A DNA stretch of 64,000 nt from Meloidogyne chitwoodi (taxonomy: Eukaryota; Nematoda; Chromadorea; Rhabditida; Meloidogynidae). The notes under the pieces are model-generated. The model was not told the origin of the DNA. It saw only the letters and a list, made by a program, of their open reading frames with translations, and did not search any database. The position numbers were made by a program, and so were the translations under genes. How positions within the stretch are numbered: the first letter of the stretch is position 1; each line of letters opens with the position of its first letter. Shown here in pieces: positions 11,855 to 33,178 of the stretch. Location: assembly GCA_015183035.1 (NCBI GenBank), contig JACZZP010000002.1, forward strand, positions 2,108,001 to 2,172,000, written 5' to 3'.

Positions 11855-12078
11855 AAGAAATAAATTTTTTATTTGGTGAAAAAATATTTTCTTTCGAATG
11901 TGGGTGTCTAACTTTTCTCTTTTTCTATGATTGGCTTTTTTTTCAATTTTTTTCTTTTGCTTTTCTTTTAAATTTTTAAACGCCATTAATTTTAAGAGTA
12001 AAAGCAGCATGCCATCAAATAATGATGAGCTTTATTTTTTACAAAAACAATTTAATATTTAATATTTTTAACTTTCAG

Positions 12079-13834: not shown

Positions 13835-16800
13835 ATGAGCAATCGTCGGCGAAACGCAACTCCTTTAAATGAGGGGGGTCCTCCAAGTTCGAGACCACGT
13901 ATGGAAAACAACATTTTAAATAATAATAATAATTCAACAAATTCAATAAATTTAACAAATGCAACAAATTCAACAAATTCAACAAATTCAAATAATTCAA
14001 CAAATTCAAATACTAATGCTATTGATGTATTTAATTTTTAAATTTAATATAAATTATAAAAAAAAATTTTTGAATAATTAAGATCAACGCAATAATTGCT
14101 GCAGAACGTGCAAGAGCTGAGTTTGTAAACATTCCTCCAGCGGCTAAAATGATAAATAAAATTGATCCAATTACACAAATGACTTGTGTAAACTACCTTT
14201 TTTGTGGTTGGCGTGGATCTTTCACATTTGAGTAAAATTTTTAGTTGAATTAAAAAAAAAAAATTTTTTTTAGCACGATAACTGGATTAGTCCTTTTTTC
14301 CCATAGGGGAGCGACCGCCCGTAGATCGTTCGATAGAGCGGATGTTCGTCTTCAAATTGGTAGAGGTAACGACGCGCAAATTGTGGCAATTTATGCCTAC
14401 GATTCTTGTGCAGCAATATTATCACGTGCTAATGTGGATGATGTATTTATATATATTTTAATATTTAAAACAAAAAATTTTTTTTTAGATAATTTGTTTA
14501 ACTACACTTGCTGTTATAGATCAAGCAGGTGATAAGAGCAAATGGAATGGCTCTGTGCCATTCTGCCTTCGCTTTTCGCGTGCAAGTTCTTTGCAAGTTG
14601 TAATTGCTGGACCAAATAATAATAATGGAACTAACAACAACAATGATCTTGCCAATGCCCAGGAGATCAACAACAACAACAACACTGTTATTGGCAATCG
14701 TAATAATTACAACAACAATAACAATTGTTTACCGATTGGAGGAAATTATAATGCTGGAATTGGAAATGGAGATGGAAATAATAATAATACTGGATTTTCT
14801 GGAATTGCTGGGTGTAGTGGAGGTGCAATTCGCCAGGTCATTTTTGTTATAAATTAAAATTTAATTAGGTAAAAAATTTTTTTTTAAAAGTAAATTTAAA
14901 TACAAAAAAAAAAATATAATTTGAAAAAATATTTATTTTTGAATTTTGTAGATATGATGAGCAATAATAATAAGATAGAAGAAAAAAATTTTTAATGGTG
15001 TGGAATATTTTTTTGATTGGAGAAAAAAATGAATTTTAATATAATTTTTTTTTATATATTAATAATTAATTTTTTGTTGCAATTAATTTTTATTAATTTA
15101 ATTATTTTATAAATCTTCTTTTATCAATTTAATGTTAATGAATAATAATTATTAAAGAAAATAGTTTTTTTATGATAAATATTTTTTTGAAATAGAATAT
15201 AATAAAATAATGTTTGAATTAATTTTGAAATAATTTAATTTAATTAATGATGTTGTTTTCAATTTATTTAATTAATGTTTTTTAATTTTATTAAAACAAA
15301 TTTATTAATTTTTTTTAAAATTTAATTAATAATTTTTTTTTTAATATAATTAATAATTTTTTTTTAAATTTAATTAATTAATGTTTTTTCTAATTTAATT
15401 TTTAAAAATAAATTAATTTTATTAATGTTTTAAATAAATTTAATGAATTTTTAATTAATTAATTAATTTTTTTTTTTAAATGTAAATTTATTAAAATAAT
15501 TTAATTTAATTTTTTTTTTTTTAAATAAATTTAATTAATGATTATTTTTTAATTTAATTAATTAATTTTTTTTTAATTTAATTTTATTAAAATAAATTTA
15601 ATTTATTAATTTTTAAATAAATTTAATTAATTAATTAATGTTTTTGTTTAATTTAATTATTAAAATAAATTAATGATGTTTTTTAATTTAATTAATTGTT
15701 TTTTTAAATTTTATTAAAACAAATTTATTAATTTTAATTAATAATTTTTTAATTCAATAATATTAATTTATATTTTTTTTTCCAAGTTTTATTAAAATAT
15801 AATTAAATTTTTTATGTTTCATATTTTTTTTTAATATAATAAAATTTTTAAATAATTAATGTCCTTCCATATTATTTTTCTTTGTTTGCAATAAAAAAAA
15901 AAGTTTAATGAAATGAAGTAATTGAATTTAAATAAATTTAAAAATTAATTAATTAAATTTGAATTAATAAAAAAAATTTTTAATTATTTTACTTAAATAA
16001 TAAATTATTTAATTTAAATAAATGAATCTTAAAATTGATTGCCTAAATTTGATCAATAAGTAATAAAAATATATATTTTCATTAAAAAAAAAGTTAATTA
16101 GGTATTTTCTTTACAAAAATTAAATAATTGATTTAATTTAATTAAAGTTAAAAATTAATTGATTAAATTTGAATTAAAAAAAAATTTAACTATTTTCCTA
16201 AAAAAAAATTAAAATAAGTTAATTAATTTAAAAAATTGATTAAATTTGAATTAATAAAATAATTAAATTATTTTCCTTAAAAAAAAATTAAATAAATTAT
16301 TTAATTTAAATTAATTAATTTAAATTTGAATTAATAAAAAAAATTAATTATTTTCCTTAAAAAATTAAATAAAATAAAATAAATGATTTGTAAATAAAAC
16401 TAAAAAATTGATTGACTAATGAATTATAAGTAATAAAAAAAAATTTATTTTCTATTAATAAATTATTTAATTAAAAAAAAATTATTTTCTTTAAAAATTA
16501 AATAAATTAATTAAATAGATTAAATTTGAATTAAAAAAAAAATGATGTATTTTTCCTCAAAATTTGGCTCCCCGACTTTTCGTCAATGGACTTTACGTCA
16601 ACGGACCATCCGTCAATACTTTTAGTCAATGGACTTTATGTCAACGGACTTTTCGTCAATGAACAAATATTTTTTAAAAAAGTTAAACGAGAATTTCGTT
16701 TTAAATGTTACAGTTTATTGTAAAATATACTTATATTAGTTATAGTATGTATTTAGTTATTGTAATTAGTAATGGAGTGGTTATGGTAACTTAAATTGCG

Positions 16801-18249
16801 TGTTGATCTTATTGGTGGTGATTTCTAGGGAGGTCAGTCCAGTTATGCTTCTTTTTAACGGTAAAGGACGATTCAGAGTCGGCTGATTCAGAGTAGCTCG
16901 TATAACTTTTTTCATTTTAAACTTTTTCAAATAATTTTTATATCATTCGAAAGAGCTCCAAAAGTGGAGTCTTTTCATCAATTGGACCGATCAGATCAGT
17001 TGATTTTAGAAAAAGTTACGCCCGAAAAACTCGAAAATCAAAATTTTCCACTTATCACGCTATTACTTTTTGTTGAGTGATCTGATTGGATCGGTCAAAT
17101 TAGATAACTTTATCCGCTTATCGGATGCTTTCGATTAATAAAAGAACTATTCAGATCGGTTAAGAAATAAAAAAGTTATGACCAAAAACAACCTGCTACT
17201 CTGAATCGGCCGACTGAATCATCCCCTACCCTCTTTTTAATTAATATTATTTTCTTTAATTTTTTAAAAAATATTTGTTCATTGACGAAAAGTCCGTTGA
17301 CATAAAGTCCATTGACGAAAAGTATTGACGGAAGGTCCGTTGACGTAAAGTCCGTTGCGAAAAGTCGTGCCACCCAAAATTTAATTAATAATATAAAAAT
17401 TTTTTATTTAAAATTTAAATAATATAAACTTTTTTATTTAAAATATACTTAAATGATAATGTAAAAAAATTTTTGTAATTAAATAATTATATTAAATTAT
17501 TTTTTTCTTTATTTAAATTAAAAATATTTTTTTACAGACGCCTTCGTTGTTTTGGGCGTTTCAAAATGCCGGAAGAGGAGGAGACTCTGGTGGTCGGCGG
17601 TCCTCCCCGCGTCTTAGGGGACGTTTGGGGAGGACCCCACCACCAGGAACGAGCAGTAGTCTCTCCCAAGATGATGGTAGGTATATTTTAAAAAAAAATT
17701 TTGGAGGTTATTAGGTGAGATGAAAGGTGGGTAGGGAAGGGGAGGGGATATTTAAAAAAAAATTGTGGGTAGTAGTAAATAACGGGTATGGTAGGGAAGG
17801 GTTTTTTTTGAATTTGAAAAAAAAATTGTAGGAAGTAAATACGGGGTAGGGAAGGTGGGTGGGAATGCTCGTGCTTAATTAAAAAAATTATTTTAGTGCG
17901 CTTCCATGATGGAGAGGAGGATGATGATGATGACGTGGTTGTGGTGGAGGAGGTTTCAGGCCCGCTCCTGGAACCTCCTCCCTTCCGTCCTGGTATCGGT
18001 CTCCGGGAGGACGAGATACAAAAATTCGTGGCGTCTGCGGAAATGCTGCCACCGACCTACACGGATCAAGAAGGGGAGGGAGAGGTGGGAATTAATTGCA
18101 CAATATGCCACCTAGGATTTGAACCAGCTATGTTTGTGGTCTGGCCAGCGTGCCTGCATAAATTGCACTGGGAGTGTTTTGTGGGTCTTTCTCGGAACTA
18201 CCGGGTCTGCCCTATTTGTCGCCGTGATATGGTTCGCGGGACAATATAG
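13835..18249 (+). CDS. RING-H2 finger protein with Asn-rich N-terminal half (six exons)
   Basis: Six exons (13835-14026, 14083-14231, 14274-14442, 14489-14836, 17538-17676, 17897-18249) join with matching phase at every junction into 449 residues. The first exon is Asn/Ser/Thr-rich. Exons 2-4 contain an unrecognised globular-looking part (INAIIAAERARAEFV; VRLQIGRGNDAQIVAIYAYD), followed by Asn/Gly-rich linker. Exon 6 starts with an acidic stretch and ends in a RING-H2 finger: C400, C403, C418, H420, H423, C426, C437, C440. RING-H2 proteins are usually ubiquitin E3 ligases, so the product may target a host factor. The fourth intron is 2.7 kb and hosts two nested MITEs; the fifth is G-rich. The last two exons are strikingly GC-rich. 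The join across the large intron rests on phase only. Confidence 0.65.
16558..17382. mobile_element. hAT-like MITE (809 bp) with 8-bp TSD
   Basis: The element (16566-17374) has inverted ends of over 100 bp carrying repeated motifs such as GACTTTTCGTCAATGGAC and TTTATGTCAACGGAC. It is flanked by CAAAATTT on both sides (16558-16565 and 17375-17382). An 8-bp duplication with long inverted ends suggests a hAT-type non-autonomous element. No transposase is present. It has itself been invaded by another element at 16859-17231. Confidence 0.8.
16850..17240. mobile_element. Second MITE nested within the first, with 9-bp TSD
   Basis: The element (16859-17231, 373 bp) has imperfect inverted ends sharing GATTCAG and GATTCAGAGTAGC. 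It is flanked by TCTTTTTAA on each side (16850-16858 and 17232-17240). A 9-bp duplication would fit a Mutator-like element, but the ends are too diverged for a firm class. Confidence 0.68.
17729..17863 (+). other. Two G-quadruplex motifs in the RING-gene intron
   Basis: 17729-17747 reads GGGTAGGGAAGGGGAGGGG, and 17843-17863 has four G-runs of at least three separated by short loops. Both meet the usual four-run quadruplex rule on the transcribed plus strand, in a window where G-runs are otherwise rare. Confidence 0.75.
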
Positions 18250-18264
18250 GGCAGATCCGGTAGG

Positions 18265-18337
18265 CCCCAGGGATCCCGATAAAAAAAAACTTTTATTTTA
18301 ATTTTTTTAATGTCTTTATTTATCGGGATCCCTGGGG
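18265..18337. terminator. Perfect 19-bp hairpin after the RING gene
   Basis: The arms CCCCAGGGATCCCGATAAA (18265-18283) and its exact reverse complement (18319-18337) flank a 35-nt AT-rich loop, starting 16 nt after the stop codon. It may stabilise or end the mRNA, or be the ends of a tiny fold-back insertion. A second inverted pair (TGTCATTTA / TAAATGACA) follows at about 18376-18435. Confidence 0.6.
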
Positions 18338-18857
18338 AGGGAGGGAGGGTGGGCCTTATTTTTTTGTAATTGTTGTGTCATTTAAAAAAAAATTTTATTA
18401 AAAAAAATGTTTTATTAAAAAAAAATAAATAAATGACACCCAAAAATATTTCTGCCTTTAAAAAAAAATTATTTAAATTGCCTTTAAAAAATTAATTAAA
18501 TTATATTTTTTTTTTGCTTTATTATTATTTTATAATATTTTACTGCCTTTTATAATTTTTTATTTTTTTCAGAATAAAGTAATAAAAAAAAATTTTTCCT
18601 TTATTTGGTTAAAAATTAGTTTTTCCTTTATTTGGTTAAAAATTTAGGATATAATAATAATAATAAATTTTAAATTAAAAAAAAATTTTTTAATGGTAAA
18701 GAAAGAACTTTTTAAATTCATCATTAACATTTCTATAAAATTTTTCCACTTATATGTCAACTTTTAACTTTATATAAAATAGTTCTATTTTTTACTTCGA
18801 GCACTTGTAATATGTAAAAAAAATATTATTTTTAAATTTCAGATAAATCAACAACAA
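18338..18857. promoter_or_regulatory. Spacer with TATA-like promoter of the polymerase gene
   Basis: This AT-rich spacer includes TATATAAAATAG at about 18771-18782. A possible 36-bp 5' intron or trans-splice acceptor (gtaatatg at 18807 to ttcag at 18842) lies between it and the ATG at 18858. Without that intron the TATA-to-ATG distance is about 50 nt, similar to the late genes of the element. Confidence 0.4.
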
Positions 18858-21800
18858 ATGAATAACGATCCATTTGTGATTGAATCAGTTCGTGAACTAA
18901 GATCCAGGTCCAGAAACACAAACGGCGAAATTTGCAACGTTAGATTTGCTCCTTTAGAGGATCAGCCACGCCCTGATCTTACTTTAACAACACTTATTGC
19001 CCGTCTCCTAGCACGGGTTGTGGGTGATCGCCCTTCGCCTATGCGCATTGGCCTACAATTACACCCACCCGCTTTTCATAATCCATTTACCGTGCCACTT
19101 CGCCCTCCATCTCAGAATAATGCCGCCGCTTTAGCCGCAGCTATTGAACGGTTGAATGAGATTAGCCAGGCTGGCATTGATCTTTTACAGGGCACGACTA
19201 CTACTAAGGTTATAGCAGTATGGCTACTAAATTCTCATCGGACAGGAAATCCAGATGATCATAGTGGTGAGTAACAGTTTTGATTTTTACATTTTTTTAA
19301 AATAATTATGTAAGGCATTTCTGTTATTCAAGGTGCATGTAATATTGATCAAGAACATGTCATCACTCCACAATGTCGATCCATTGTCAAAGTAATTAAT
19401 CCAAATGACCGTTTTTGCCTTGCTCGCTCTGTTTATATTGGTCTTACAAAAATAAATGTAATTGATTTAAATGTAAGAAGGATCACACCTCGACAACAAA
19501 AAGATCAATTTAGAGCGTTTTGTAGACAACAGGAAGAACATTTAAATGATGTAATTGAACTAATGCAAAATTCGGGTCTCCCTCTCGATTTACAAGAATA
19601 TTCGCTTACACATGTCGCCGCTTTGCAACGTTATGTCAATGAAAATGTAGGAGGTTCTGGACTTATAAGAATTGTTGTATTTAGCAAAGAGCAACAATAC
19701 AAGATTATTTTCAAAGGTAAACAGGAATATAGTTTAATATTATTTTTTAAATTTATTTCAGGAGAGGGACGTGCTGCGCGTTACAACATTTGTATTCTAC
19801 TACAAAATGGTCATTATAACTATATTACAAGGCCTGAACAACTTTTCAGTGCTCATCGCTTCTGCATCGATTGTGAAAAAAGTGTAACACGATCCTATCA
19901 CTGGGCTGGCTGTACCATTGTTTGTCGACTCTGCATGCGTTATGGAGCAAATTATCCATGTCAATTGATTGAAAGAATTCCATGTACTGATTGCGGTTTT
20001 GTTTTTCCTCAACGGGCGTGTTATGAATATCATCTGAATAATCAAGTCCCGGAGGAAATGGTCGGCCCACGAACACGAACTTTTGCTTCAATTTGCCAAT
20101 CTCGACGCATTTGTTCACTGTGTAATCGGATTATTTTTGGTCTACAACAACAACAACTTCATGACTGCATTACAGAGCAGCAGAATCAACAACAACAACA
20201 ACAACAGTTTAATGGCCAATTGATCGATTGTGCAAAATGTCGGGGTCCTCATTTACCAGAACATCCATGTTTTATTCAGCCACTCAATTCTACTGAAAAT
20301 TCTATAATTACCGAAGAAGAGGAAGAAAATGTTTTTGAATCTTCTATAGGTATTTTTGTTTCTCTTATACAATATATTATTTTTTTTTATTTTAGGAATT
20401 GAAAATGAACAAAATCAGCCACCACAACAACAGCAACAAGTAAATTCACAGAGGCGTAATAAGAAAAAATTACCTTTACGGTTTTGCTTTTTCGACGCCG
20501 AAACATCTCAGGAACAACCTATGGCTGTTGGTGCAAACAACGCAGGGTATAAACACATTCCGGTGCTTTTGATTGCTGAAGTTCTATGTGAAAAATGTAT
20601 TAATAAGGGTATAGGCATCAAAGATATTGGTCAGCGTGCAACAGGATGCTTCTGTGGCAAACCAAGAGGTGAAAGATGGCAAAGATGGTGCTCTCCACCT
20701 TTTAAAAATGCACCTGGTGACAACACGCCTTTGCCTTCTAATTTATTTTATAATCCACGCCGAATGTATTTTCATAGTTTTGATAATGAAGAAGAAAGTC
20801 CTGTTGATCAATTTCTGGATTATCTTCTATCAGTAATTTTTTTTAATTTTGTTCAATTTTTATATTCAGTATGGTTCTCAAAAAATGTTAACAGTCTGCA
20901 TAGCCCATAATGGAGGCAAGTATGACTTCCACCTAATACTTGAGGCACTCCACAAGCGAAATTTACCTCCAACAAGTCTGTGTTCAACAGGCTTAAAAAT
21001 TTATTCAATGCGTTTGGGAGGCAACCACCAAAGGAAAATACTTTTTAAGGACTCGCTCAATTTTTTCATCTGTGAGCTTGATGCCCTTACTAATGTATTT
21101 TCACTGCCTGTTGATGTTGCTACTTCAAAACCGTTCTTTCCATACCTTTATATAAAGCGACAAAATCTGCATTTGAGAATTCAAGGTCTACCGGCAATTG
21201 ACTACTATCAGCCGGACTTTAAAAAACCTGAAAAAAGAGCCCAGCTTCTTGAATGGCATCAACAACAACAACTGAATAATACAACAAATTTCCAACTCCG
21301 TGAGCAGCTTCTTCTCTATTGCGCAAACGATGTTGCTATCCTACGTGAGAGTGTTATTCGCTATCGCCGTCTTATTGGGGAACACACGGCCGGGCTTGAT
21401 CCATTTTTAGCTTCTTCGACCGCAGCAGGACTCGCACTGTCAACAATGCGACGTTGTTTTCTGCCTGAGAACTGGCTTGTACACTCACCAGAAGGAGGTA
21501 AAAAAAAACTAATCTTTTACATTTATTTTATTGAAAAAAAATATATTTATTTCAGGCTTTCTGCGTGGTAGGAGAGCCTCCGCAGAGTCGCAGCGTTATA
21601 TTAGATTATTTGAATTGGAAAATAAGGAAGCTCAAGGAAAAGTTCAGTGTGCCCAGTGGGCTATTGGTGAAGCTAATGTTGAGGATTGTGGATTTAGACT
21701 TGACGGTCTTTGGTATCGGGCACCTCCATTAAAACCCTTGGCCATAGAATACAATGGGTGTTTTTACCACGGTAATATCTATTCATTATTTAAAAAAAAA

Positions 21801-23957
21801 AGTTTTTTCTCACTAGGTTGTCCTCGATGCTTTCCAACACGGAACCAACGACTAGCCGGGGGGCGTACTGCAGAGGAACTTTACGAGCGCACACAATTGC
21901 GCCTATACGAACTTGAACAACAAGGATATTCCTTACATGTAATTTGGGGGCATGAGATGAAAGAAAGGCTTCGTTTCAATCAGCAGCTGAGGCAAACATG
22001 GAATGAAATAGATGTTGTAAGGCCGATGGATCCAAGGAAGGACTGTCTTAGAGGAGGGAGAACGGAGCCTTTCAAACTTCATCATATTTGTACATCTGAT
22101 GAGGAAATTATCTACATTGATATTGTATTTGTTAAAAAAAATTTTTTTTCTACAAAAAAAATTTTTCAGGTAAGCCTTTATCCATATGTAATGAAGTCAA
22201 GAGAATTTCCAATTGGGTGTCCTGTTGTTCTAACAAGAGAAACACTGTTGCAACCACCTAATGCTCCTTTACCATGGACTCGGCCTCATCACAACATTTA
22301 TAAGGGCCTTTTGTTAGTCCGAGTTCTTCCACCAACATCAATGAATGGTCTTCCACCACTTCTTGGATATCGAACGCATGATGGAAGACTAACATTTCCT
22401 CTTTGCGCTTTATGCGCAGACAATAAACACCAACAACAATGTCGTCATCAAAAGGAGAAACGATCATGGATAAGCGGCTATACACATGTTGAGTTAAATA
22501 AAGCGCTAGAATTAGGTTATCAGATATTGGATGTTCATGAGGTTTTTTATTTTAATTTCACTTTATTTTTTGAACTTTAATATTTTAGGTGTGGAATTAT
22601 GAGCGTTGGGATCCTCAACTGTTTAAAGGATATGTCAATACGTTTGTAGGACTTAAACAACAGGCGAGTGGATGGCCCCAAAATTGCGATTCACAAGAGG
22701 CGCGTCAAAATTACATTGACGAATTTGATCGCATCGAGGGCATTAGAATTGATCCAACAAAAGTGGAAGTAAATCCTGGACTAAGGATGATTGCGGTGTG
22801 TATAATTTTACAATTATTTATTCAAGAAAAAAAATTATTATTCCAGAAAAAAAAAAATTTTTCTTTGTTTAAAAATTTTTTTTATCAATTTTTAGAAAAT
22901 ATTGGCAAATTCTTTATGGGGAAAATTGGCTCAACGTGTTGGCAGTACTGAAGTAAAGTATGCACAAACACCAGAAGAATTCCATCAATTACTGGATGAC
23001 CCGACGCTCGAAACTCTTGATTTTGAGCATGTGAGTGAATATATGGACCGTTGCGTTGTACGGAAAAAGGAAGAATTTGCTAAGCCGCCTGACACTAATT
23101 GTCTTCATGTGGCAGCGTTTGTAACATCCTATGCCCGACTTCATTTATATCAATATATGGAGGAACTTAGGCGCGTTGGTGGTCAGTTACTCTATTGTGA
23201 CACTGATTCGATCTTTTATGTTACAAAACGTGGAGCTAATAGAGTGATAGAGGGTGAAGCTTTGGGTCAAATGAAGCGTGAACATCCAACTAGACGCATT
23301 ATTGAATTTATTGCAGGAGGTCCTAAAAATTATGGGTTCAGGCATATTGATGCGACAACTGGAAATGATGAAAGGGCAGAACTTAAAATTAGATCTTTTC
23401 CACTCTCTTATGCGACCCATCAACTGATAAATTTTCAAACAATGAAAGAACTTGTTATTTGTCAGTTTAATATCGATGGAGAAATGTAAGTTTAAAATTA
23501 AAAAAAAAATTTTTTAAACAATATATTTAGTGATGAAACTCTGTCCGAAAGTTTTATGGATGTTTCTAACAACAGCAACAACATGATTATGGTAGAATTT
23601 CCACAAATTGGACGTACACAACGTTCCGATTTATACACAATGATGACTAGGAAAGAATACAGGACTTGTTTTGAAAAGGGGAGGATTAGACCAAATATGG
23701 AAACACTTCCATTTGGACACAGAAATGTTCAAGAACAGCAAACAGAAGTACCTTTTTAAATTTATTAAAGTTTTAATTACAATTTTTTCTTTAAGTTTAC
23801 TCCAACTTCACTACTTTCTATTCAACCAATTGCAATATCTACACCAGTTATTCGTCAACAAAATTCACAAAGACAAGAACTGGATTTACAGGATATTCCG
23901 GGATCTTCAGGTTGGACAAATGTTGATTATTTACAAAGATATCCCCCACCATTTTAA
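18858..23957 (+). CDS. Protein-primed family B DNA polymerase (12 exons, about 1,500 aa)
   Basis: This is the replicase of the element. The N-terminal third has a CLARSVYIGL segment typical of Maverick polymerases and several Cys/His pairs (CIDCEKS, CRLCMRYG, CTDCGF, CSLCNRI, CAKCRG) that look like zinc fingers, plus Gln runs. The 3'-5' exonuclease motifs are present: DAE in FFDAET (about 20493), HNGGKYDFHL (about 20905), and YCANDVAIL (about 21317). The polymerase motifs are DIVSLYP split across the intron ending at 22168 (motif A), KILANSLWGKL (about 22895, motif B) and YCDTDS (about 23194, motif C). All catalytic carboxylates are kept. Eleven short introns break the gene. Such enzymes start synthesis from a terminal protein bound to the DNA ends. 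Exon limits were placed by eye. Confidence 0.94.
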
Positions 23958-24047
23958 TTAATTATTTTAAATTTTATTGATATTATTTTTTCAAAAATGT
24001 ATTTAATAATAAATGTATTTAATAATAATAATAATAAATGTTTTCTA

Positions 24048-24677
24048 TTATATTCTTGGAAATTTTATAAGTAGGGGTAAAATTATATTATCAAATAAAT
24101 CTTTCATATGTTTAGTACAAGTTAATCCTGTTAATATAACCCGTCCAGAGATGTATATAAGACAAGAAGCTTCTCTTTTATCCCCATCTTTCATCTTGAA
24201 TCGAAATGCTGGAAATATTGTAGGCTCATAGGAAGCTTTTGTAATTTTTTCGAATAGTTTTTCTTGTTGTTGTTGTCGTTTAAAGTGTTTATAAATCAAT
24301 TCAATGGCGACTTTGTTCATATATCGATACGAACCAACAATGTTTGTAACTCTGAGATTTAAAATTCCAATTTCACAAAATTCTTGTATTTTTGCTGCTG
24401 TAATAGAAGCTTTTATTCTTTTTATCACCCTATAAGCCATTATTCTTGCCATATTGATGCTAGGAACACCTGTTAATACCACTTTACTAGATTGAAAAAT
24501 TAATGCGGCTGTTGTTCTATTATGTTTATGGCGAATACGCATTATTATTGAATGGAATCGCTTAGGATTATATTCAGTATTTATTCCATTTTGAGCTATT
24601 TTAAGAAAATTTTCTGATGTAAATCTTTGAATACCAGGCAAAAGTTTAAAAACACATGTACAATTTTCAATATTCAT
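24048..24677 (-). CDS. TATA-box-binding protein (TBP) encoded by the Polinton
   Basis: A single-exon ORF of 209 residues begins at the ATG at 24677; the frame is open a little further upstream but has no earlier ATG there. It has both TBP repeats. Repeat 1 contains YNPKRFHSIIMRIR and TTAALIFQSSKVVLTG, matching the near-invariant TBP signature. Repeat 2 contains NIVGSYRYMNKVAIEL, YEPTIFPAFRFKM and CLIYISGRVILTG. Of the four DNA-intercalating Phe positions, three are Phe (F41, F61, F155) and the fourth is Tyr (Y175). A Gln-rich insertion (RQQQQEK, about 134-140) lies in repeat 2. There is no long N-terminal extension. It is clearly diverged from a housekeeping TBP yet intact. It is co-directional with the PAZ gene 124 bp upstream, a spacing seen in nematode operons. 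A role in transcribing the element's own TATA-led genes is inferred. Confidence 0.93.
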   Translation of the reverse strand: MNIENCTCVFKLLPGIQRFTSENFLKIAQNGINTEYNPKRFHSIIMRIRHKHNRTTAALIFQSSKVVLTGVPSINMARIMAYRVIKRIKASITAAKIQEFCEIGILNLRVTNIVGSYRYMNKVAIELIYKHFKRQQQQEKLFEKITKASYEPTIFPAFRFKMKDGDKREASCLIYISGRVILTGLTCTKHMKDLFDNIILPLLIKFPRI

Positions 24678-24801
24678 ATTTACTTTATAAAATAATAATA
24701 ACAAATACAATATAGATGGAAAAATATAAATAAATAAATGGTAAATAAAAATTATTAATTGTTTGATTAAATTTAAAAAAATAATAAATTATCTATAATA
24801 A

Positions 24802-25732
24802 TTAACATTGTTTCATTTGCTTATTTTTCATAGAAACACTAATAACTTCAAGCGGGTAGTAAGATCGATGATGGCCTCCTCCAAATTCAATTATACATGG
24901 CAAATAAGGATGTCGTAATTTGAAAGAGTGCTTTACGTAGTAATACCCACGAACCTTAATTTTGATTTTTATTTTAGTTTACTTTTTGAGCTCTTACCGT
25001 TATTCCCAAATATCCACCCAAAGCAGGAACCATACCTGCTGGTTGAACAGTAAAATCATTACAACGAATAACAAAATTTTTTGAAGGATGTAAATGTGTT
25101 GTACGCAGTTGAACATGATTTTGAAGATGACAAATTATTTCACGTCGTTTTTCGATGTTATAAAAAAGTACATGAAGCTCTTTGAATAAACATTTATGTA
25201 ACTGGCATAGATAATCTATCAATGGCACTGATCGACGTTTAAAAATTGACAGCTGAAGCGGGTTTTGTATTTCAACTGATTTGGGCTCAATAAACGGGTT
25301 TTCAGGTTCTTTCTCTTCTTTTTTCTCTTCTTTCTTTTTATCGTGTTCTGCTGTCCAATCCAATTTTTCATCATCATCATCGCTTTCAAGGACTATTTGA
25401 AGTATTTTTTCACGCGTATCATTCAAAATATCATCCTCTTTATTCTTATTTACAATCATCTCGGTTAAGAAAGAGCCTATTTCAAGTGAAGGTACTACAA
25501 CATCAATTTCCTTTAAATTAACAATTTATTTATTTATTTAAAAATATTAATAATAAATTACTTTTTGTTCCATTTTTTCATTTGCTGGAGTTATTTCGTA
25601 CGTTGTCTGTTCTTGTTGTTTTTGCCTTTGGCGTCTTTGTTCTTCTTCTTCATGTTCTTTTTGTTCACGTTCTTGCTTTTCTTCACTTGTTTCAATTACG
25701 CCATAAAGACCGAAATTGTTGATAAAGTTCAT
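24802..25732 (-). CDS. Argonaute-type PAZ-domain protein without MID/PIWI
   Basis: Three exons (25732-25562, 25510-24998, 24954-24802) join in phase 0 into 278 residues. The N-terminal part is acidic and coiled-coil-like (Glu/Gln/Arg-rich, then an acidic Asp/Glu region). From about residue 145 it reads like a PAZ domain: VPLIDYLCQL (first helix), LRTTHLHPSKNFVIRCNDFT (the beta strands), YYYVKHSFKLRHPYLPCI, and HHRSYYPLEVISV, the hallmark end of Argonaute PAZ. It then stops 10 residues later, so no MID or PIWI domain is present in it or nearby. PAZ domains hold the 3' end of small RNAs. A free PAZ could compete for small RNAs or guide-loading partners and blunt silencing of the element; this is inference. 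It faces the ATPase gene across an 88-bp TATA-rich gap. Confidence 0.82.
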
Positions 25733-25820
25733 TTAAAAATAGATTTTTTTTAAGGAAAAAAACTTTATATATATATATATATATAATGCTGAAAATTATT
25801 TTTTTTATTTCGAAATCAAA
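25733..25820. promoter_or_regulatory. Divergent TATA-rich promoter between PAZ and ATPase genes
   Basis: The 88-bp gap holds a TA repeat at about 25764-25786, readable as TATATAAAG on the minus strand and TATATAATG on the plus strand. It lies about 40 nt from each start codon. It is the only gap between these opposed genes, so it must serve both. Confidence 0.6.
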
Positions 25821-26522
25821 ATGGAAGGATTTGAAAAAATCGATTATTTACATACACGTTTCAAACACCCTTTTACAATGATAGTTTCGGGAAGTACTGG
25901 TTCTGGAAAATCTGAATGGGTAAAATTTTTTTTAGAAAATTTAACAGAAATGGTTAATTCTGAAAAAAATATTTCGCTAGTATTTTACTGTTACGGAGAA
26001 TTAAATAAAAATATTTTACTTATGCAGAGAAAAGGATTTGTTGATAAAGGAAAAACACGTGTTATTGTTTCAAAGGGAGTTCCAAATGGGGGAGAGGACT
26101 TTATACATAAACAGGCAGTTCAATCAAAAGGTTCGATGCTATTGGTTCTTGATGATTTAATGGTTGGAATTGATCAAAGATTTATTGAAACTATATTTAC
26201 ACGGGGGTCTCATAATTGGAAAATGAGTATTATTTTGATCAGTCAGCATTTATTCAGTAAAGAACTTAAAATTCCTCGTAATAATTCCCATTATTTATTA
26301 TTAATGCGAAACCCTGCAGGAGCTTTACAAATTCGAACACTTGCCATGCAGCTTTTCCCCACGCGTTCAAAATATTTTTTGGAAGCATATGCTGACGCAA
26401 CAAAAGAGAATTTTGGGTATTTATTGGTTGATATACACCCGAGCACTCCTGAATTTCTTAGGCTGAGAACACATATATATCAAAATGATAATGAAAATAC
26501 AATTATTTATCTTCCAAAATGA
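25821..26522 (+). CDS. FtsK/HerA (A32-like) genome-packaging ATPase
   Basis: The 233-residue intact ORF has a Walker A motif GSTGSGKS (residues 24-31) and a Walker B motif LLVLDD (about 106-112), followed by FTRGSHNWKMSIILISQHLF, the arginine/sensor region typical of A32-like ATPases. These enzymes push DNA into capsids in Polintons, adintoviruses and large DNA viruses. The stop overlaps the next start as ATGA (26519-26522), which makes the two genes a tight pair. No intron. Confidence 0.93.
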   Translation: MEGFEKIDYLHTRFKHPFTMIVSGSTGSGKSEWVKFFLENLTEMVNSEKNISLVFYCYGELNKNILLMQRKGFVDKGKTRVIVSKGVPNGGEDFIHKQAVQSKGSMLLVLDDLMVGIDQRFIETIFTRGSHNWKMSIILISQHLFSKELKIPRNNSHYLLLMRNPAGALQIRTLAMQLFPTRSKYFLEAYADATKENFGYLLVDIHPSTPEFLRLRTHIYQNDNENTIIYLPK

Positions 26523-26890
26523 AAAAAAACTTTTCTACTAGTTTACTAATTGAAAAGAACGCAATCTTTCTTAATAATTTATTAACCCTCTCAAAATCAA
26601 AAAAAGCCGTTAATAAAATTATTTCTCAAGCTTCTGATGAACAACTGTTATGCCTTGTTGAAATTTGTTTGAATTTGTTAAAAGGGCGATTACCATTTCA
26701 TAAAAATAGAATACAAAGTTTAAAAAAACAAGCATCGTTATTGCGTAAAATTAGTCGCTCTCGCAGTGCTTCTTCCACAAAAAAACTATTACTTAATGAG
26801 GAAATTCAAAAGGGGCGTGGTTTTCCACCTGTGGCTGGTCTTCTTGCTAGTATTGTTGTTCCCCTAATTGCGGAGCATTTTATTAAGTAA
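26519..26890 (+). CDS. Small basic Polinton protein with C-terminal hydrophobic segment
   Basis: This 123-residue ORF starts within the ATPase stop codon. It has a helical N-terminal half (LLCLVEICLNLLKGRLPFHK), a basic middle (SLLRKISRSRSASSTKKLL), and an end reading KGRGFPPVAGLLASIVVPLI, which is hydrophobic and membrane-active looking. Small proteins of this build occur in many Polintons and adintoviruses and have been compared with the adenovirus core peptide pX. I base the call on build and position, not on a match. KGRGF could be a protease site. Confidence 0.6.
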   Translation: MKKNFSTSLLIEKNAIFLNNLLTLSKSKKAVNKIISQASDEQLLCLVEICLNLLKGRLPFHKNRIQSLKKQASLLRKISRSRSASSTKKLLLNEEIQKGRGFPPVAGLLASIVVPLIAEHFIK

Positions 26891-26893
26891 TAA

Positions 26894-26902
26894 TATAAAT
26901 AG
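26894..26902 (+). promoter_or_regulatory. TATA box TATAAATAG, unit starting at 26939
   Basis: It sits 45 nt before the ATG, in the 48-bp gap after a gene pair. The same word occurs before 30448 and a one-base variant before 28903. Confidence 0.65.
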
Positions 26903-26938
26903 CAAAATTTTATAAAGTTAATTAAATTTAAAAAAAAA

Positions 26939-27736
26939 ATGCATCATGCATCTCGAATGCTTTTAATACCTGAAGATTTTTTTAAAAGTTTAATAGGTTC
27001 AGAGGGAACAGAAGAAAGAATTAATGCTAACAGTGATGGAACATCAATAGGTTTAATTCGTGAGCGTTTACAAAATACTAGAGATAATCATAAATTAGAT
27101 CCAAATACAAAAGCTATTAATTATGAGCAGGATTTTAAAAGATATAATAAACTTATTAGAGAAAAAGAAGAAAAACCTATTGATGTTAAACTTAAAAATT
27201 TTGGAGAAATTGCTGAAAAAATATTAAATAATAATAATAATAATGATGAAAAAAATTTAAAACCTCAACAAAATATTATTATTAAGAGAATTAAGAAAAA
27301 AGTTCCATTTCGAAAATTTAATAGAAAACCAATAGAAAACATTGTACGGAAGCCTCTCGAGTCTTTAGTTGATAAAAATATTGAAGTCGAAGAACATGAA
27401 TATTTTTCTGCAGATAGTGAACAAGACTTAAATGAACAAGTCCTTAAATATGTTCGAGAAAATTCTGAATCATTAGGAATAACACCTGACTTAAGATTAA
27501 AGAGAAAAATAGGTGGCAAATCCCCACTTATTACAAGTAATGTTGAGGATATTATAAATCATATAATTAATAATAATGGTGTCCGAAAGAAACCATTACC
27601 TACAGGTTATGACCAATTTCTTCGTAGAATTGATCAACATCAATTTTTACAAAATTTACTTTTTCCTTCAACAAAATCGCCAAACCAATTTGGTAAAGGA
27701 ATTTTTTCATTTAAGCCTTCGTTATGGAAAAATTAA
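26939..27736 (+). CDS. Conserved-position Polinton protein of unknown function
   Basis: The 265-residue ORF is intact and rich in Lys, Asn and Glu, with a basic stretch (IIIKRIKKKVPFRKFNRK), a segment PTGYDQFLRRIDQHQFLQ, and a C terminus ending KPSLWKN. It lies between the ATPase pair and the integrase, whose start codon is 13 nt inside its end. Position and composition suggest a virion-associated or accessory protein. I recognise no domain and no enzyme motif. Confidence 0.6.
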   Translation: MHHASRMLLIPEDFFKSLIGSEGTEERINANSDGTSIGLIRERLQNTRDNHKLDPNTKAINYEQDFKRYNKLIREKEEKPIDVKLKNFGEIAEKILNNNNNNDEKNLKPQQNIIIKRIKKKVPFRKFNRKPIENIVRKPLESLVDKNIEVEEHEYFSADSEQDLNEQVLKYVRENSESLGITPDLRLKRKIGGKSPLITSNVEDIINHIINNNGVRKKPLPTGYDQFLRRIDQHQFLQNLLFPSTKSPNQFGKGIFSFKPSLWKN

Positions 27737-28854
27737 AAATAAAACAAATAAAAATTCTTGATCGATTATATAAAGATGTAAACTCCGCAACATGTTTTAC
27801 TTCTATCGAACCACTTTTACGAGAGGCAAGCCGTTTAGACAAAAGTATTACTCGTGAACATGTCAAGGAATATCTTTCAACTCAGAATACTTACACATTA
27901 CATAGGCGGGCAGTTAGAAAATATAAACGAATGCATACGCTCGCAGCGGGGTTACATACTGAATGGCAAGCTGATTTAAGTATTTTTGATCGTTTAGCAA
28001 GTCAAAATAAAGGGTTTAAATATCTTCTTGTCTGTATAGACACACTTAGCCGTCAGATTTTTGTTGAACCAGTTATGAGTAAACATAGTGAAAAAATGAT
28101 TGAAGCTTTTAAGAGATTATTTTTAAGAATAAAAATTGTTCCTTGGAAATTATTAACAGATCAGGGACTAGAGTTTACAGCAAAAGAAGTACAAAAATAT
28201 TTCAAATCTATAGATATGGAACATTTTTCAATGGTTACATCCCCCCAATGGCATGCAGGAATGGCAGAAAGAGCTAATCGAAGTATAAAAGAAAGACTTT
28301 ATCGTTATTTTACTGAAAAACGAACATTAAAATGGGTAGACGTTATTCAAGATATTGTTAGCGCAATAAATAACTCTTTTAGTTCAGGTATTGGAATGCG
28401 ACCTGTCGATGTCAATTATAAAAATGCGGAAGGTTTAAGACAAAAATTAAAAGATCAAGCACTAGAGGAATTTGCTCCAAAACGTTGGAAAACCACAAAT
28501 TTTTCAATTGGCGATAAAGTTAGAATAGAAAAATATAAACATGTTTTTCAAAAAGGATATTTGCCAAATTTTACAAATGAAATTTTTATTATCAAACAGG
28601 TACGACTTGTTCCCCACCAGCCTCCAACATATAGAATATGTGATCAAAATGGAGAAATAATTCGAGGCTGGTTTTATGCGAATGATTTTTGTTTAGTAAG
28701 AGATCGTAACAAGGATGAAGATATCCTATATGATATAGAAAAAGTTTTGAAAAAGAGAAAATTTGACGGTGAAGATCAATGTTTTGTAAAATGGAAGGGG
28801 TATAGTTCCCTATATAATAGTTGGATTCCAGCAAGCTCAGTTAGTTGGAAATAG
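27724..28854 (+). CDS. Retroviral-type integrase with C-terminal chromodomain
   Basis: The 376-residue ORF has an rve core with D84 (WQADLS), D146 (LLTDQGLEF) and E182 (GMAERANRSIK), with exactly 35 residues between D146 and E182 (D,D35E). The C terminus (about 333-376) is a chromodomain: ILYDIEKVLKKRK, QCFVKWKGYSSLYNSWIPAS. The integrase inserts the element and makes 6-bp target duplications, as seen at the two ends. The chromodomain may guide insertion to marked chromatin, of interest because this copy sits in a satellite. It overlaps the preceding gene by 13 nt. No intron. Confidence 0.96.
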   Translation: MEKLKIKQIKILDRLYKDVNSATCFTSIEPLLREASRLDKSITREHVKEYLSTQNTYTLHRRAVRKYKRMHTLAAGLHTEWQADLSIFDRLASQNKGFKYLLVCIDTLSRQIFVEPVMSKHSEKMIEAFKRLFLRIKIVPWKLLTDQGLEFTAKEVQKYFKSIDMEHFSMVTSPQWHAGMAERANRSIKERLYRYFTEKRTLKWVDVIQDIVSAINNSFSSGIGMRPVDVNYKNAEGLRQKLKDQALEEFAPKRWKTTNFSIGDKVRIEKYKHVFQKGYLPNFTNEIFIIKQVRLVPHQPPTYRICDQNGEIIRGWFYANDFCLVRDRNKDEDILYDIEKVLKKRKFDGEDQCFVKWKGYSSLYNSWIPASSVSWK

Positions 28855-28863
28855 TATAAATAA
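28855..28863 (+). promoter_or_regulatory. TATA box TATAAATAA, unit starting at 28903
   Basis: It lies 48 nt before the ATG of the minor capsid gene and begins 1 nt after the integrase stop codon. Confidence 0.6.
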
Positions 28864-28902
28864 TAAATTTTAATAAAATATTAAAATAATTTTAAATAAA
28901 AT

Positions 28903-29949
28903 ATGACTTCTTTCTATATAGTTCTTCCTTCTAACACTAATGTTGAGGGAAATAAAACAAATTCATTCAGAGTTCGCTTACCGCAGAAATTACAATTTAA
29001 TTCCGAATGGTCAGTAGGTTTGGCTGTGATGGTTTATCCTTATTCATGGCCATCTCTTGGTACTACTACCGAACAATTTTTTACAGTAACATGGCAAACT
29101 GATGAGAGTGTCCGCTTGAATGTACCTTCTTCTAGTTTCTTAAACCCCCAGCAGTTGAAAGAAAGTTTAAATAGATCCCTTAATGAAGGCTGTGAGGAGT
29201 TATCTAATAAAATGAAAACAATTCAATTAGAATATACTGGTAACTTAAAAGAACTTAAATTACAAGCTAAACAAGAGTATAAACGTCTTAATGAATTGAA
29301 AAAGAAAGAATCCTATGAAAATACAACAAAGGCTGCACATGATGCTAAAGAACTCTCCTATGATTATATTCCCTTAAAAAATGAATCTGAAATCTATACA
29401 GATTTATTATCTAAGATGAATGAAAATGCAAACAAAGTAATAAAATTTTTATTAACTAGTGGAAATGATTTTGATTCTTGGGTAAATATCTATCGCAAAC
29501 CAGGCTCTGTATGTAACTTTGAGTTCCACGAAAAGAAAAATCGCTTCTCAATATTTTTGGATACAAAATATATAAAGAGTGTAAGCATGACAGAACAACT
29601 TGCGTATATTTTAGGTTTTGATAAATGTGATATATTTGAAACATCTATTTCTAAATTTATGCCTGATATGAAGGGTGGTGTATCGTCATTTCATGTTTAT
29701 GCTCCAGGATTAATTGAACCAATGATTATAGGGGATGTAACTGCACCTGTATTACGAATTGTAAATATTAGAGGGAAGCAGGATGAGATTATAGAAGAAC
29801 AATTTATCTTTATACAATATCACAAATTGTTAATTAAAGAAATTAATGAAATTTTTATTGAAATAAGAACTTCCAGTGGGACATTAATGCCTTTCCAGTA
29901 TGGATCATGTACATTAACCTTACATTTTAAAAAGTCAACATATTTTTAA
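28903..29949 (+). CDS. Minor capsid (penton-like) protein
   Basis: The 348-residue ORF opens with FYIVLPSNTNVEGNKTNSFR and RLPQKLQFNSEWSVGLA, the pattern of Polinton/adintovirus minor capsid proteins, in which the strands of a single jelly roll begin. It ends GTLMPFQYGSCTLTLHF, again typical. A Lys/Glu-rich helical insertion occupies about 95-150. The protein would form capsid vertices. It is followed 6 nt later by the protease gene. The frame is intact without introns. Confidence 0.88.
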   Translation: MTSFYIVLPSNTNVEGNKTNSFRVRLPQKLQFNSEWSVGLAVMVYPYSWPSLGTTTEQFFTVTWQTDESVRLNVPSSSFLNPQQLKESLNRSLNEGCEELSNKMKTIQLEYTGNLKELKLQAKQEYKRLNELKKKESYENTTKAAHDAKELSYDYIPLKNESEIYTDLLSKMNENANKVIKFLLTSGNDFDSWVNIYRKPGSVCNFEFHEKKNRFSIFLDTKYIKSVSMTEQLAYILGFDKCDIFETSISKFMPDMKGGVSSFHVYAPGLIEPMIIGDVTAPVLRIVNIRGKQDEIIEEQFIFIQYHKLLIKEINEIFIEIRTSSGTLMPFQYGSCTLTLHFKKSTYF

Positions 29950-29955
29950 AATATT

Positions 29956-30414
29956 ATGAATACCCTTCAAATAAATAAAATTTTGTATAGAAATCGTATT
30001 ACAAAAGATTATTACATTGGTTGTTTTGCCTCAGATTCTATTCCGGTTTCAATTAATTTTACTCCTTTTTGTATGGTTGTAAATATTGATCCAAGTAGTG
30101 CAGATGGTAGTCACTGGATTGGAATATTTTGTGAAAATCCTTCAACTATAGAATATTATGATTCCTTAGGCATATGGCCCCCAATTAGCCCTTATATTCG
30201 AAATTATCTGAATAACTTTGAAAGTGTTCGTTTCAATTCTATTCAGGTGCAGAACTCGTTAAGACATACATGTGGAAAACATGTAATATGCTTCCTGTTT
30301 CTAAGATGTAAGGGTTATTCCATGGATAAAATAATTCAATTTTTAAAAAGAGTAAAGGCTGATAATTTTGTTTCTGAATTTATAAAATTGCATATATTTA
30401 ATATAAATAGTTGA
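29956..30414 (+). CDS. Adenain-like cysteine protease
   Basis: The 152-residue ORF has the C5/Ulp1-type triad and oxyanion residues in order: H53 in GSHWIGIF, D69 in EYYDSLG, Q99 and C106 in QVQNSLRHTCGKHV. The Q-to-C distance of seven equals that of adenain. The enzyme matures capsid proteins in adenoviruses and is a core Polinton gene. It is 6 nt behind the minor capsid gene and probably shares its transcript. All catalytic residues are present. Confidence 0.92.
   Translation: MNTLQINKILYRNRITKDYYIGCFASDSIPVSINFTPFCMVVNIDPSSADGSHWIGIFCENPSTIEYYDSLGIWPPISPYIRNYLNNFESVRFNSIQVQNSLRHTCGKHVICFLFLRCKGYSMDKIIQFLKRVKADNFVSEFIKLHIFNINS
30402..30410 (+). promoter_or_regulatory. TATA box TATAAATAG, unit starting at 30448
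   Basis: It lies 46 nt before the next ATG and overlaps the last codons of the protease gene, so it is the same word at nearly the same distance as at 26894. Confidence 0.62.
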
Positions 30415-30447
30415 GAAAAAAAATTAAAAAAATTTTTTATTTAAAAA

Positions 30448-31008
30448 ATGCACATTGATTTTGATCCCTCACACATTGATTGGTCAACATTGACCGAACA
30501 ATCAACAGATAATAATTCTTATTTGCAATGGGGAGGTTATAATGTATTTCGGGGTATCCCTTATCAAAGAGGTAATGGTTTAGGCTCCGTGCTTAGGAGT
30601 TTCATGCGATATCTTATTCCTTATGGTAAACAAATTGGTAGTGCAATTGGTAAACAAGGATTAGAATCTGGCAATCGTATTTTAAGTAATGTTTTAGAAG
30701 GGAAAGATCTTAAAGAATCACTTGTAGATGAGGGAAAGTCTGGATTGAAGAATTTACTTCAGAAAGCATCAGAGAATCTTGATAAACAAAAAGGAAAGGG
30801 TTTCGATTTTAAACGTTACAAAAATATAAAAAATAATCACGCTATAGGTCAGATGAACACCAAAGAGCCAGATATTCATTTAAATACTATAAATAAACGA
30901 CCTTATTCTAAAATTGGCCCTCCTAATTTTATTCCAAAGCCTTTACAAAAATCCCCCAAAAAATCAATAAAAAAACGAATTCGCATAGACACCCTAGGTA
31001 CTTATTAA
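30448..31008 (+). CDS. pVI-like membrane-active virion protein
   Basis: The 186-residue ORF has YQRGNGLGSVLRSFMRYLIP near residue 40, an amphipathic segment after a Gly-rich site that suits protease cleavage. Helical repeats follow (GKQIGSAIGKQGLESGNRIL; GLKNLLQKASENLDKQKGKG), and the C-terminal tail is strongly basic (KSPKKSIKKRIRID). Polintons and adintoviruses often place such a protein, comparable to adenovirus pVI, next to the major capsid gene; here the gap is 1 nt. The call rests on build and position. Confidence 0.7.
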   Translation: MHIDFDPSHIDWSTLTEQSTDNNSYLQWGGYNVFRGIPYQRGNGLGSVLRSFMRYLIPYGKQIGSAIGKQGLESGNRILSNVLEGKDLKESLVDEGKSGLKNLLQKASENLDKQKGKGFDFKRYKNIKNNHAIGQMNTKEPDIHLNTINKRPYSKIGPPNFIPKPLQKSPKKSIKKRIRIDTLGTY

Positions 31009-31009
31009 A

Positions 31010-32335
31010 ATGAGTTGCACCAAAAAAATTAATGAAAATAGCCCTTTAGCTTTAAACAGTGCATTGAGTATATTCACTGTTCCACCCACAAATGTCTCAG
31101 TTGTTCGTTCCTTTTTTCGCGAAATTCTTCCCCTAAGTACAATTACTCAAGATTCCCCGTATCTATTTCGTTTATTTAGCGATAATCTATGGACTGATTT
31201 ATCTCGTACATATCTTTATCTTGAGCTCTCCATTGAAAAATTTGGAGCAGATAATAAATGGAGTGCCATTGGTGCTGGAGATACTAATATTGGTTCAATT
31301 CAAGGTATTGGACAAACATTTGTTCAACAGTTAAAAGTGACTGTGGGTAATACCGAGGTTTATGACAGCGGTACTCTTTATCCATTTAAGAGTTACATAA
31401 CAAATGAACTTTCATTCCCAGATAATGTTAAATATAATTTTCTCGCTTCAATTGGGTATTATAAAAGTGATAAACATGATGATAGCACAGATCTTGGTTT
31501 TCAAAAACGCTGTTCTTTATTTACTACAGGTAAACATTCCCAATTCCTGTCACGTTTAGATTTTGATATAGGAAACCAAGAATTGTATTTATTAAATAAT
31601 TTAGACGTTAATTTTAATATTTATCGTTCAAAAAATTCATTTGTATTGCAAAAATTAAATGCTGCTGACGAGGGGCAGTATAGAATTTATGTTCATGATG
31701 TAAAGCTATTTGTGAAAATGATTGAAGTTCAGCCTTCACTTAACATGAATATTTACAAAACTTTAGAATCAAAGCCCGCAACATATGCAGTACGTAAAAC
31801 AGAAATAAAATCTACTTTCCTTACTGCAGGGCGAACTGAAATTGAATATAATGCGTTCAGTGCAAGCATTCCGCGACGCATCACTGTTGCTTTAATATCT
31901 AATAAAGCATTCAATGGAGACTTTGGTTTATCCCCTTTTAATTTCCAGCCTTATGATTTGAGGGATATCTCTATTCATACTGGAGGACATATCTACCCTT
32001 TGGTCGCGTATAAATTAAAATTTAACGATAATCTTTTTGTTCGCGCTTTTGTTGACATGTATGAAGCACTGGGGATGGCTAATTCTGACCGATCAATCGA
32101 TATTTCTATGGAAAAATTTAAGAATGGTTGGACATTTTTTGTCATTCCCCTTACCTCCACACTTGATGATTCGTGCGGATTTGAACTTTTAAGAAGCGGT
32201 ACAACTAGTATACGCCTAGAATTTAATACCCCAATTCCTGCCGGCGGTGTTGAAATGATTGTTCTAGGAGAATTTGACCAAATGTTAATGATTGACTATA
32301 ACCGTCATATTGTATCAGATTCAAATTTAGGTTAA
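31010..32335 (+). CDS. Major capsid protein (hexon-like, double jelly roll)
   Basis: The 441-residue intact ORF begins SPLALNSALSIFTVPPTNVS and has SPYLFRLFSDNLWTDLSRTY, then LKVTVGNTEVYDSGTLYPFK and YITNELSFPDNVK, all typical of Polinton/adintovirus major capsid proteins in the first jelly roll. The second half has RRITVALISNKAFNGDFGLS, NFQPYDLRDISIHTGG and a final VEMIVLGEFDQMLMIDYNR, as in that family. It would form the capsid hexons. It starts 1 nt after the pVI-like gene. No intron and no break, although it is on the short side for the family. Confidence 0.93.
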   Translation: MSCTKKINENSPLALNSALSIFTVPPTNVSVVRSFFREILPLSTITQDSPYLFRLFSDNLWTDLSRTYLYLELSIEKFGADNKWSAIGAGDTNIGSIQGIGQTFVQQLKVTVGNTEVYDSGTLYPFKSYITNELSFPDNVKYNFLASIGYYKSDKHDDSTDLGFQKRCSLFTTGKHSQFLSRLDFDIGNQELYLLNNLDVNFNIYRSKNSFVLQKLNAADEGQYRIYVHDVKLFVKMIEVQPSLNMNIYKTLESKPATYAVRKTEIKSTFLTAGRTEIEYNAFSASIPRRITVALISNKAFNGDFGLSPFNFQPYDLRDISIHTGGHIYPLVAYKLKFNDNLFVRAFVDMYEALGMANSDRSIDISMEKFKNGWTFFVIPLTSTLDDSCGFELLRSGTTSIRLEFNTPIPAGGVEMIVLGEFDQMLMIDYNRHIVSDSNLG

Positions 32336-32369
32336 ATACATAATAGAATAATTTTTTAATTTTAATAAA

Positions 32370-32660
32370 ATGCAGAATTTATCTCAATTTTACTTTTTTT
32401 CAAATAACTCTTATGATTATTTGTCTTCAGATAAAGAATATGATAAAACCCATATGAATAATATACCGTATGGATTATTAATTTTATTAATACAATACAC
32501 ACTTTTATTACCCATAGTTATACTTTGTTGGGTTTTTATGCTTAAATTTTTACGCGCCCATGGGTACATATCCCAGGTACAAGCCGATGAAATTGTTCAA
32601 ACAATACAGAACATACCTCTTCGCGATATTCAAAGATTTACTCAACTTCCCAGAATTTAA
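32370..32660 (+). CDS. Small single-pass membrane protein of the Polinton
   Basis: The 96-residue ORF has one strong membrane segment (YGLLILLIQYTLLLPIVILC, then WVFML) and a short polar tail (VQADEIVQTIQNIPLRDIQR). It is the last gene before the right terminal repeat, 34 nt after the major capsid gene. Small membrane proteins are common in Polintons. The function is unknown; a role in virion membrane contact is conceivable. Confidence 0.6.
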   Translation: MQNLSQFYFFSNNSYDYLSSDKEYDKTHMNNIPYGLLILLIQYTLLLPIVILCWVFMLKFLRAHGYISQVQADEIVQTIQNIPLRDIQRFTQLPRI

Positions 32661-32755
32661 AAAATTAACATCCTTTTTCTCTCTACTAGAACTGCCTCAA
32701 GCCTTTTGGCTATATGCCAGCCACGATCAGGGACATAAAAAAACAAGCAAAAAAA

Positions 32756-33172
32756 TGGTAAATTTATATTCAACAAATTGTAATTCAAATTTGTTGAACA
32801 CGGTGGCGAGTGGTTAGATCCTATCTCTTTGGGTTAAGGACCGTAGCTCAATTTGAATGGGACGTTTTTAAGTTTTGACATTTTGAACTTTGGTCATTTT
32901 GAAATTTGGACGTTTTGAAAATTGGACATTTTGAGCTTTGGACATTTTAAAATTAGGACATTTTGAAATTTGGACATTTTGACAATTGGCATTTTCAACG
33001 TTGACATTTCGACTAATCTCTCTCCCCGGCCTGGCCATTCCTTCACTTCACAGCCACTCTCCTTCTCTGCCCAGCTACCACTCTCTCGCCTGCCCACCCA
33101 TAACCCCTACGTCTCTCCACTATTAAATTGTTGATTTTTCAATCAATAATTTAATAGTGGAGAGATAGTAGT
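32756..33172 (-). repeat. Right terminal inverted repeat of the Polinton
   Basis: It is the inverse of 11485-11854. It is longer than the left copy because it has more of the CAAAATGTCC-type subrepeats (about 32880-32985). The outer 217 bp, including the terminal hairpin at 33113-33164, look identical to the left end. Confidence 0.94.
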
Positions 33173-33178
33173 TGAATG
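33173..33178. other. 6-bp target site duplication, right (TGAATG)
   Basis: This is an exact copy of 11479-11484, directly outside the right terminal repeat. Confidence 0.92.

Follow-up and report, generated by a model that had tools for sequence, protein, structure and literature searches.

The window studied here is a stretch of 64,000 nucleotides from Meloidogyne chitwoodi. It carries a Polinton of 21,688 bp (11485..33172, without strand), bounded by terminal inverted repeats (TIRs) and a 6-bp target-site duplication. The left repeat (11485..11854, plus strand) has 370 bp and the right one (32756..33172, minus strand) 417 bp; both ends match over 417 columns with 83% identity. The duplication, TGAATG, is found at 11479..11484 and again at 33173..33178. 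A protein-primed DNA polymerase B (PolB) extends over 19314..23486 on the plus strand in several exons, with its ends unmapped. It matches PF03175 at 20900-21493 and weakly at 22896-23486 (E 0.011). Three further genes follow on the plus strand: an A32-like packaging ATPase (25824..26522; PF04665 E 6.3e-4, under the Pfam cut-off), an integrase (rve) with a chromodomain (27724..28854; PF00665 E 3.1e-11, PF00385 E 4.5e-7) and a putative cysteine protease (29953..30414), which weakly matches the S273R protease (E 0.0052) and has no Pfam match. The open reading frame at 31010..32335 (plus) encodes a putative major capsid protein, a label taken from gene order; profile-library and PDB sequence searches with it gave no fitting family. 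Across the genome, at least 62 stretches match the ATPase and at least 63 match this putative capsid frame. The element was classed as a Polinton by its PolB, rve integrase, ATPase (below the cut-off), protease (weak match), TIRs and 6-bp duplication. It also contains a RING-finger frame at 17839-18249 on the plus strand (Pfam zf-RING_2, E 1.9e-6). Just beyond it, at 34620-39708, lie nested inverted repeats with 263-nt arms, 95% complementary and 3 kb apart.

The assembly comprises 47.5 Mb in 30 contigs. Two near-identical copies of the Polinton are present elsewhere. The copy on contig C25 is 100% identical over 9.5 kb and 99.94% over 7.1 kb compared; the copy on C3 is 99.1% identical over 8.3 kb and 99.6% over 7.6 kb, and has a frameshift in exon 3 of the PAZ gene described below. 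The right flanks differ among the three, so the element moved recently. The genome also gave ten SL1-like RNA matches, all under Rfam's cut-off. One that was inspected contains GGTTTAAATACCCAAGTTTGAG, which we take to be a nematode spliced leader.

Between PolB and the ATPase, on the minus strand, the Polinton encodes a protein of 278 amino acids in three exons. Exon 1 (25562..25732) encodes residues 1-57, exon 2 (24998..25510) residues 58-228, and exon 3 (24802..24954) residues 229-278 and the stop. The introns have 51 and 43 nt, both GT-AG. A PAZ domain occupies about residues 152-271. It corresponds to 24826..25228 on the minus strand (coordinates derived from the exons) and is interrupted by the second intron. 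Immediately downstream, on the same strand, is a TATA-binding-protein-like (TBP) gene with two TBP repeats (24048..24677; Pfam TBP E 1.2e-21, TBP structures E 1.6e-16). The independently annotated Meloidogyne incognita protein P0103 matches the window protein end to end with 70% identity, across both splice joins, and has the identical end point. P0102 likewise matches end to end, with 71%. These full-length matches make the gene model and its early stop very likely correct, as judged from protein comparison, and the three exons ending after PAZ, as drawn by the first-pass annotation, were confirmed in their exact place. The protein terminates directly after PAZ, without the PIWI that an Argonaute has. 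No PIWI match was found inside the Polinton, and the gene lies within the TIRs. The proposal that this Polinton encodes an Argonaute PAZ domain on its own was right.

Taken alone, the window protein scores 19.7 bits against Pfam PAZ, whose cut-off is 28.8. Five of the nine relatives tested pass this cut-off. The PAZ fold was found in predicted structures of orthologs, so the domain assignment made from the letters passed its structural check. The structural match lists also include Hiwi1 and MILI at lower Z. In the P0103 model, the exon 1 region (residues 1-57) has low confidence and one helix. The fold by itself shows no function.

We compared the residues that hold the RNA end. In human Ago2, according to PMC5896489, H271, R315, H316 and Y311 touch the terminal phosphodiester and Y338 the 3'-OH; R277, P295, Q297, K335 and T337 are named as further contacts. 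The pair F294A/Y311A has been used to impair 3'-end binding by AGO2 (PMC13083262). At H271, Y311, R315, H316 and Y338 the window protein has H, Y, K, H and Y. An alignment of 127 proteins, which includes the window protein and many close relatives, has H or Y at H271 in 126, Y or H at Y311 in 122, R or K at R315 in 119, H at H316 in 120, and Y or F at Y338 in 116. Several of these inner contacts are similar and not identical: H271 is replaced by tyrosine in 82 of the 127 rows. Identical residues fill 61% of the family cells at the inner five contacts versus 22% across the 116 PAZ positions compared (p 0.004 by identity, 0.005 by entropy), the p values coming from random sets of five drawn from those 116 positions. 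When histidine is grouped as basic, p is 0.013; grouped as aromatic, it is 3e-5 (0 of 50,000 in a second run). With 26 representatives below 60% identity, the values are 64% versus 22% (p 0.002; entropy p 0.004).

On the other hand, all ten named contacts taken together are not clearly conserved, either in the 127 rows (identity p 0.08, entropy p 0.04) or in the 26 representatives (0.06 and 0.08). At F294, the contact to the last base, the window protein has valine and no family member has an aromatic residue; K278, R280 and K335 have disappeared from almost all members. The alignment is less sure at these positions. Thus, the inner end-binding pocket appears to be kept, while base stacking and the outer contacts are not. 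These losses would suit a dominant-negative Argonaute fragment, one that ties up a partner or loading factor by protein contact and holds no RNA. We consider this improbable, given that the inner five contacts are better conserved than the remainder of the domain. Retention of the residues that contact the phosphate and the 3'-OH makes a small-RNA decoy the leading idea.

The dN/dS ratio was 0.11-0.19 in 8 of 12 pairs of open reading frames from relatives. Three distant pairs gave 0.27-0.36, and a near-identical pair, in which hardly anything has changed, gave 0.55; dS exceeds 1 in several pairs, and some sequences serve in more than one pair. The codon comparisons show that relatives of the window PAZ gene are subject to purifying selection.

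The gene is not the oddity of a single element. Merged matches of two genome searches gave 64 PAZ loci. A Polinton marker lies within 12 kb of 47 of them, and a PIWI match within 8 kb of 11 (Argonautes); six belong to neither class. PAZ lies within 9 kb in 44 of at least 65 Polinton marker clusters and, among the matches listed, in 31 of the 33 clusters having all three markers; in these counts C16, C17, C22, C24 and other small contigs may duplicate others, and palindromes are counted twice. The two exceptions look decayed, with two stops in the PolB stretch at C7:277843 and a shortened capsid match at C30:2388836. Matches to the window's protease, PolB exon, the capsid or the penton-position protein lie near the PAZ frame at 18 of 22 loci that are not of the window type. 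The remaining ones (L008 and L027, which are one place, L023 and L030) have no such matches nearby, though the genome-wide map puts PolB near them. A host gene, or the chance insertion of an Argonaute fragment, would fit the six loci in neither class, at least one of which is a host-like gene joining an F-box to PAZ. This explanation is contradicted, and we hold it for very improbable: most loci lie near Polinton genes, the PAZ-only domains form one clade (see below), and the gene sits within TIRs in an element with two near-identical copies.

Several other arrangements were seen. The PAZ-only matches at C2:1660824 and C25:897490, the latter in a 201-aa open frame, are more than 40 kb from any Polinton marker and are candidate solo remnants or domesticated copies. 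At C12:2248700-2254900 (L058) there is a mirror-image PolB-PAZ-PAZ-PolB unit. Its 2,995-bp arms make a perfect palindrome, and it may be an inverted Polinton dimer or an assembly artefact. By match positions, similar layouts occur at C26:1779-1790 kb, C6:111-118 kb and C6:133-141 kb. Such capsid-less units were dropped as evidence on function, because the perfect palindrome may be artefactual. In two host-like genes, L045 (C11:621-628 kb) and L046 (C25:527-534 kb), the first PAZ half comes after an F-box-like stretch and the second half lies in a later exon; no PIWI match is near. The L046 piece matches Pfam F-box-like (E 4.9e-7); the L045 piece has no match. A related PAZ exon at C11:459-466 kb (L044) shows no F-box. 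An F-box adaptor with PAZ could tag small-RNA or Argonaute complexes for degradation.

In protein databases, three profiles gave 84, at least 50 and 23 family matches, sets that overlap. Among the matches listed by three protein searches, the named ones belong only to Meloidogyne, Heterodera, Globodera and Ditylenchus, and the closest are from Meloidogyne. Databases already call such proteins 'PAZ domain-containing protein', with no Polinton link in the entries examined. Three Meloidogyne enterolobii models (P0105, P0127 and P0134) fuse PAZ with TBP, which is the gene order of the window. TBP matches occur in 18 of at least 65 Polinton clusters of the M. chitwoodi genome. No viral relative was among 110 pattern matches in IMG/VR, phage records gave none, and predicted viral structures gave none at E 0.001 or better (best E 0.06). 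We found no literature joining Polintons with a PAZ gene, in a search whose coverage excluded most subscription papers and which is thus no proof of novelty.

A tree separated 27 PAZ-only domains, nine of them from this genome and 18 from database proteins, from nine others with support 100/97. These others were human Ago2, fly Ago1, five host Argonautes and two host F-box and PAZ genes. The five host Argonautes stand for 11 loci; their domains were put together approximately from separate exon parts, and several of them sit on long branches. The PAZ-only clade contains the window type, a sister type behind the capsid gene (L018 and L021, 35% identical to the window protein) and a type beside PolB (ten of them 21-28% identical). 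The ATPase shows 48-50% identity in those TBP-bearing elements that are not of the window type, and 39-47% in most other elements. This agrees with a PAZ gene inherited together with its element, as far as sequence identity can tell.

The first reading had taken the introns as a trace of capture from a host gene. No clear trace was seen: among the relatives inspected, introns within the PAZ frame occur in the window type only, upstream exons being possible in the L018 type, and 13 of 14 relative frames run from ATG to stop uninterrupted. A recent capture marked by introns was therefore rejected. Single-frame relatives, together with one PAZ-only clade apart from the tested Argonautes, make the capture look old.

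Family profiles matched chains of human AGO1-4, fly Ago1 and plant AGO10, with best E values of 2.5e-13 and 8.9e-13 (AGO2 8.9e-13). Among the matches listed by these profile sequence searches there were neither PIWI-clade nor Dicer chains, and fly Ago2 appeared only at E 0.41. In the host, the best match was the Argonaute at C28:1692-1694 kb (60 bits), with a profile that itself contained two AGO sequences; the two PAZ exons of the C30 Argonaute scored 39 and 34 bits. The tree does not join the C28 gene to the PAZ-only clade. Of the host donor sought, the AGO type is upheld by the profile matches, and a specific gene is not.

PAZ lies in different places in different lineages: next to PolB in a large one, behind the putative capsid gene, or next to TBP. 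PAZ domains recognise the 3' ends of nucleic acids, including deoxynucleotide overhangs (structure titles 1t2r and 1si2). Its neighbours, PolB in that large lineage and TBP in the window, would fit an accessory of replication or transcription that grips the 3' ends of DNA or RNA single strands made during protein-primed replication, unrelated to silencing. We regard this as the strongest of the alternatives, though unlikely: the domain is of the AGO type and its position is not constant. Polintons elsewhere, to our knowledge, replicate without a described PAZ. A protein that recruits or steers the host small-RNA machinery to the benefit of the element, either to hold down the element's copy number or to silence rival Polintons, is about as improbable as the protein-contact explanation, or slightly more so. 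The several diverged Polinton lineages in one genome make rivalry plausible; the element, however, has no PIWI match.

The silencing to be overcome in these nematodes is probably not that of piRNAs, which had been suggested as the target. According to PMC5934874, a look for PRG-1/2 in root-knot nematodes and cyst nematodes found neither. Clade IV nematodes are described as without PIWI, and their RdRP-made 5'-triphosphate siRNAs target transposons; in Globodera pallida, 22-26 nt 5'-triphosphate RNAs have an antisense bias on transposons (PMC4323106). For these reasons we set the piRNA target aside as unlikely.

We infer the RNA binding and the anti-silencing purpose of the PAZ protein. Our main reading is that a stand-alone PAZ was taken long ago from an AGO-type Argonaute, became a core gene inherited with these nematode Polintons, and acts as a brake on RNA silencing. 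The protein would hold small RNAs, single-stranded or with overhangs (RdRP-made siRNAs, Dicer siRNAs), by their 3' ends or, alternatively, block their hand-over to host AGO/WAGO proteins. By competing with AGO/WAGO loading, or by sheltering 3' ends, it would lower the silencing of the Polinton. The acidic extension might serve contacts or solubility. We give this reading a probability of roughly 0.46. A little less probable is the narrower statement that a severed Argonaute PAZ, as a core gene of an animal virus-like transposon lineage, caps small-RNA 3' ends and so counters the RdRP/WAGO pathway that took the place of piRNAs in these nematodes.

A PAZ-only gene under selection, present in almost all marker-complete Polintons of one genome, is a concrete and testable candidate for the means by which animal DNA transposons and Polintons survive small-RNA silencing, and it may help to explain dozens of Polinton loci in a 47-Mb genome. 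If the brake is real, a part of Argonaute is able to work alone.

Compared with known systems, the window element shares PolB, chromodomain integrase, ATPase, TIRs and the 6-bp duplication with Polinton/Maverick elements, and differs in its PAZ and TBP genes. Compared with the AGO-clade PAZ of human AGO1-4 and fly Ago1, the window protein ends after the domain and has no PIWI; the Polinton family has lost F294 and the outer basic contacts, and carries an extension of its own at the N or C terminus. Some viral suppressors of RNA silencing, such as tombusvirus p19, bind small RNAs. Sequestration is the likeness, for the Polinton PAZ a proposed one, and no viral suppressor is known to us to be a PAZ domain. 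The transposon-encoded anti-silencing proteins that we know of are plant ones, and we know of no relation between one of them, VANC, and PAZ. In Arabidopsis, the VANC protein of VANDAL transposons is anti-silencing and makes its target elements lose DNA methylation (PMC5735166). A transposon-encoded counter to host silencing would be common to both systems; VANC acts on the DNA methylation of its targets, unlike the role that we propose for the Polinton PAZ.
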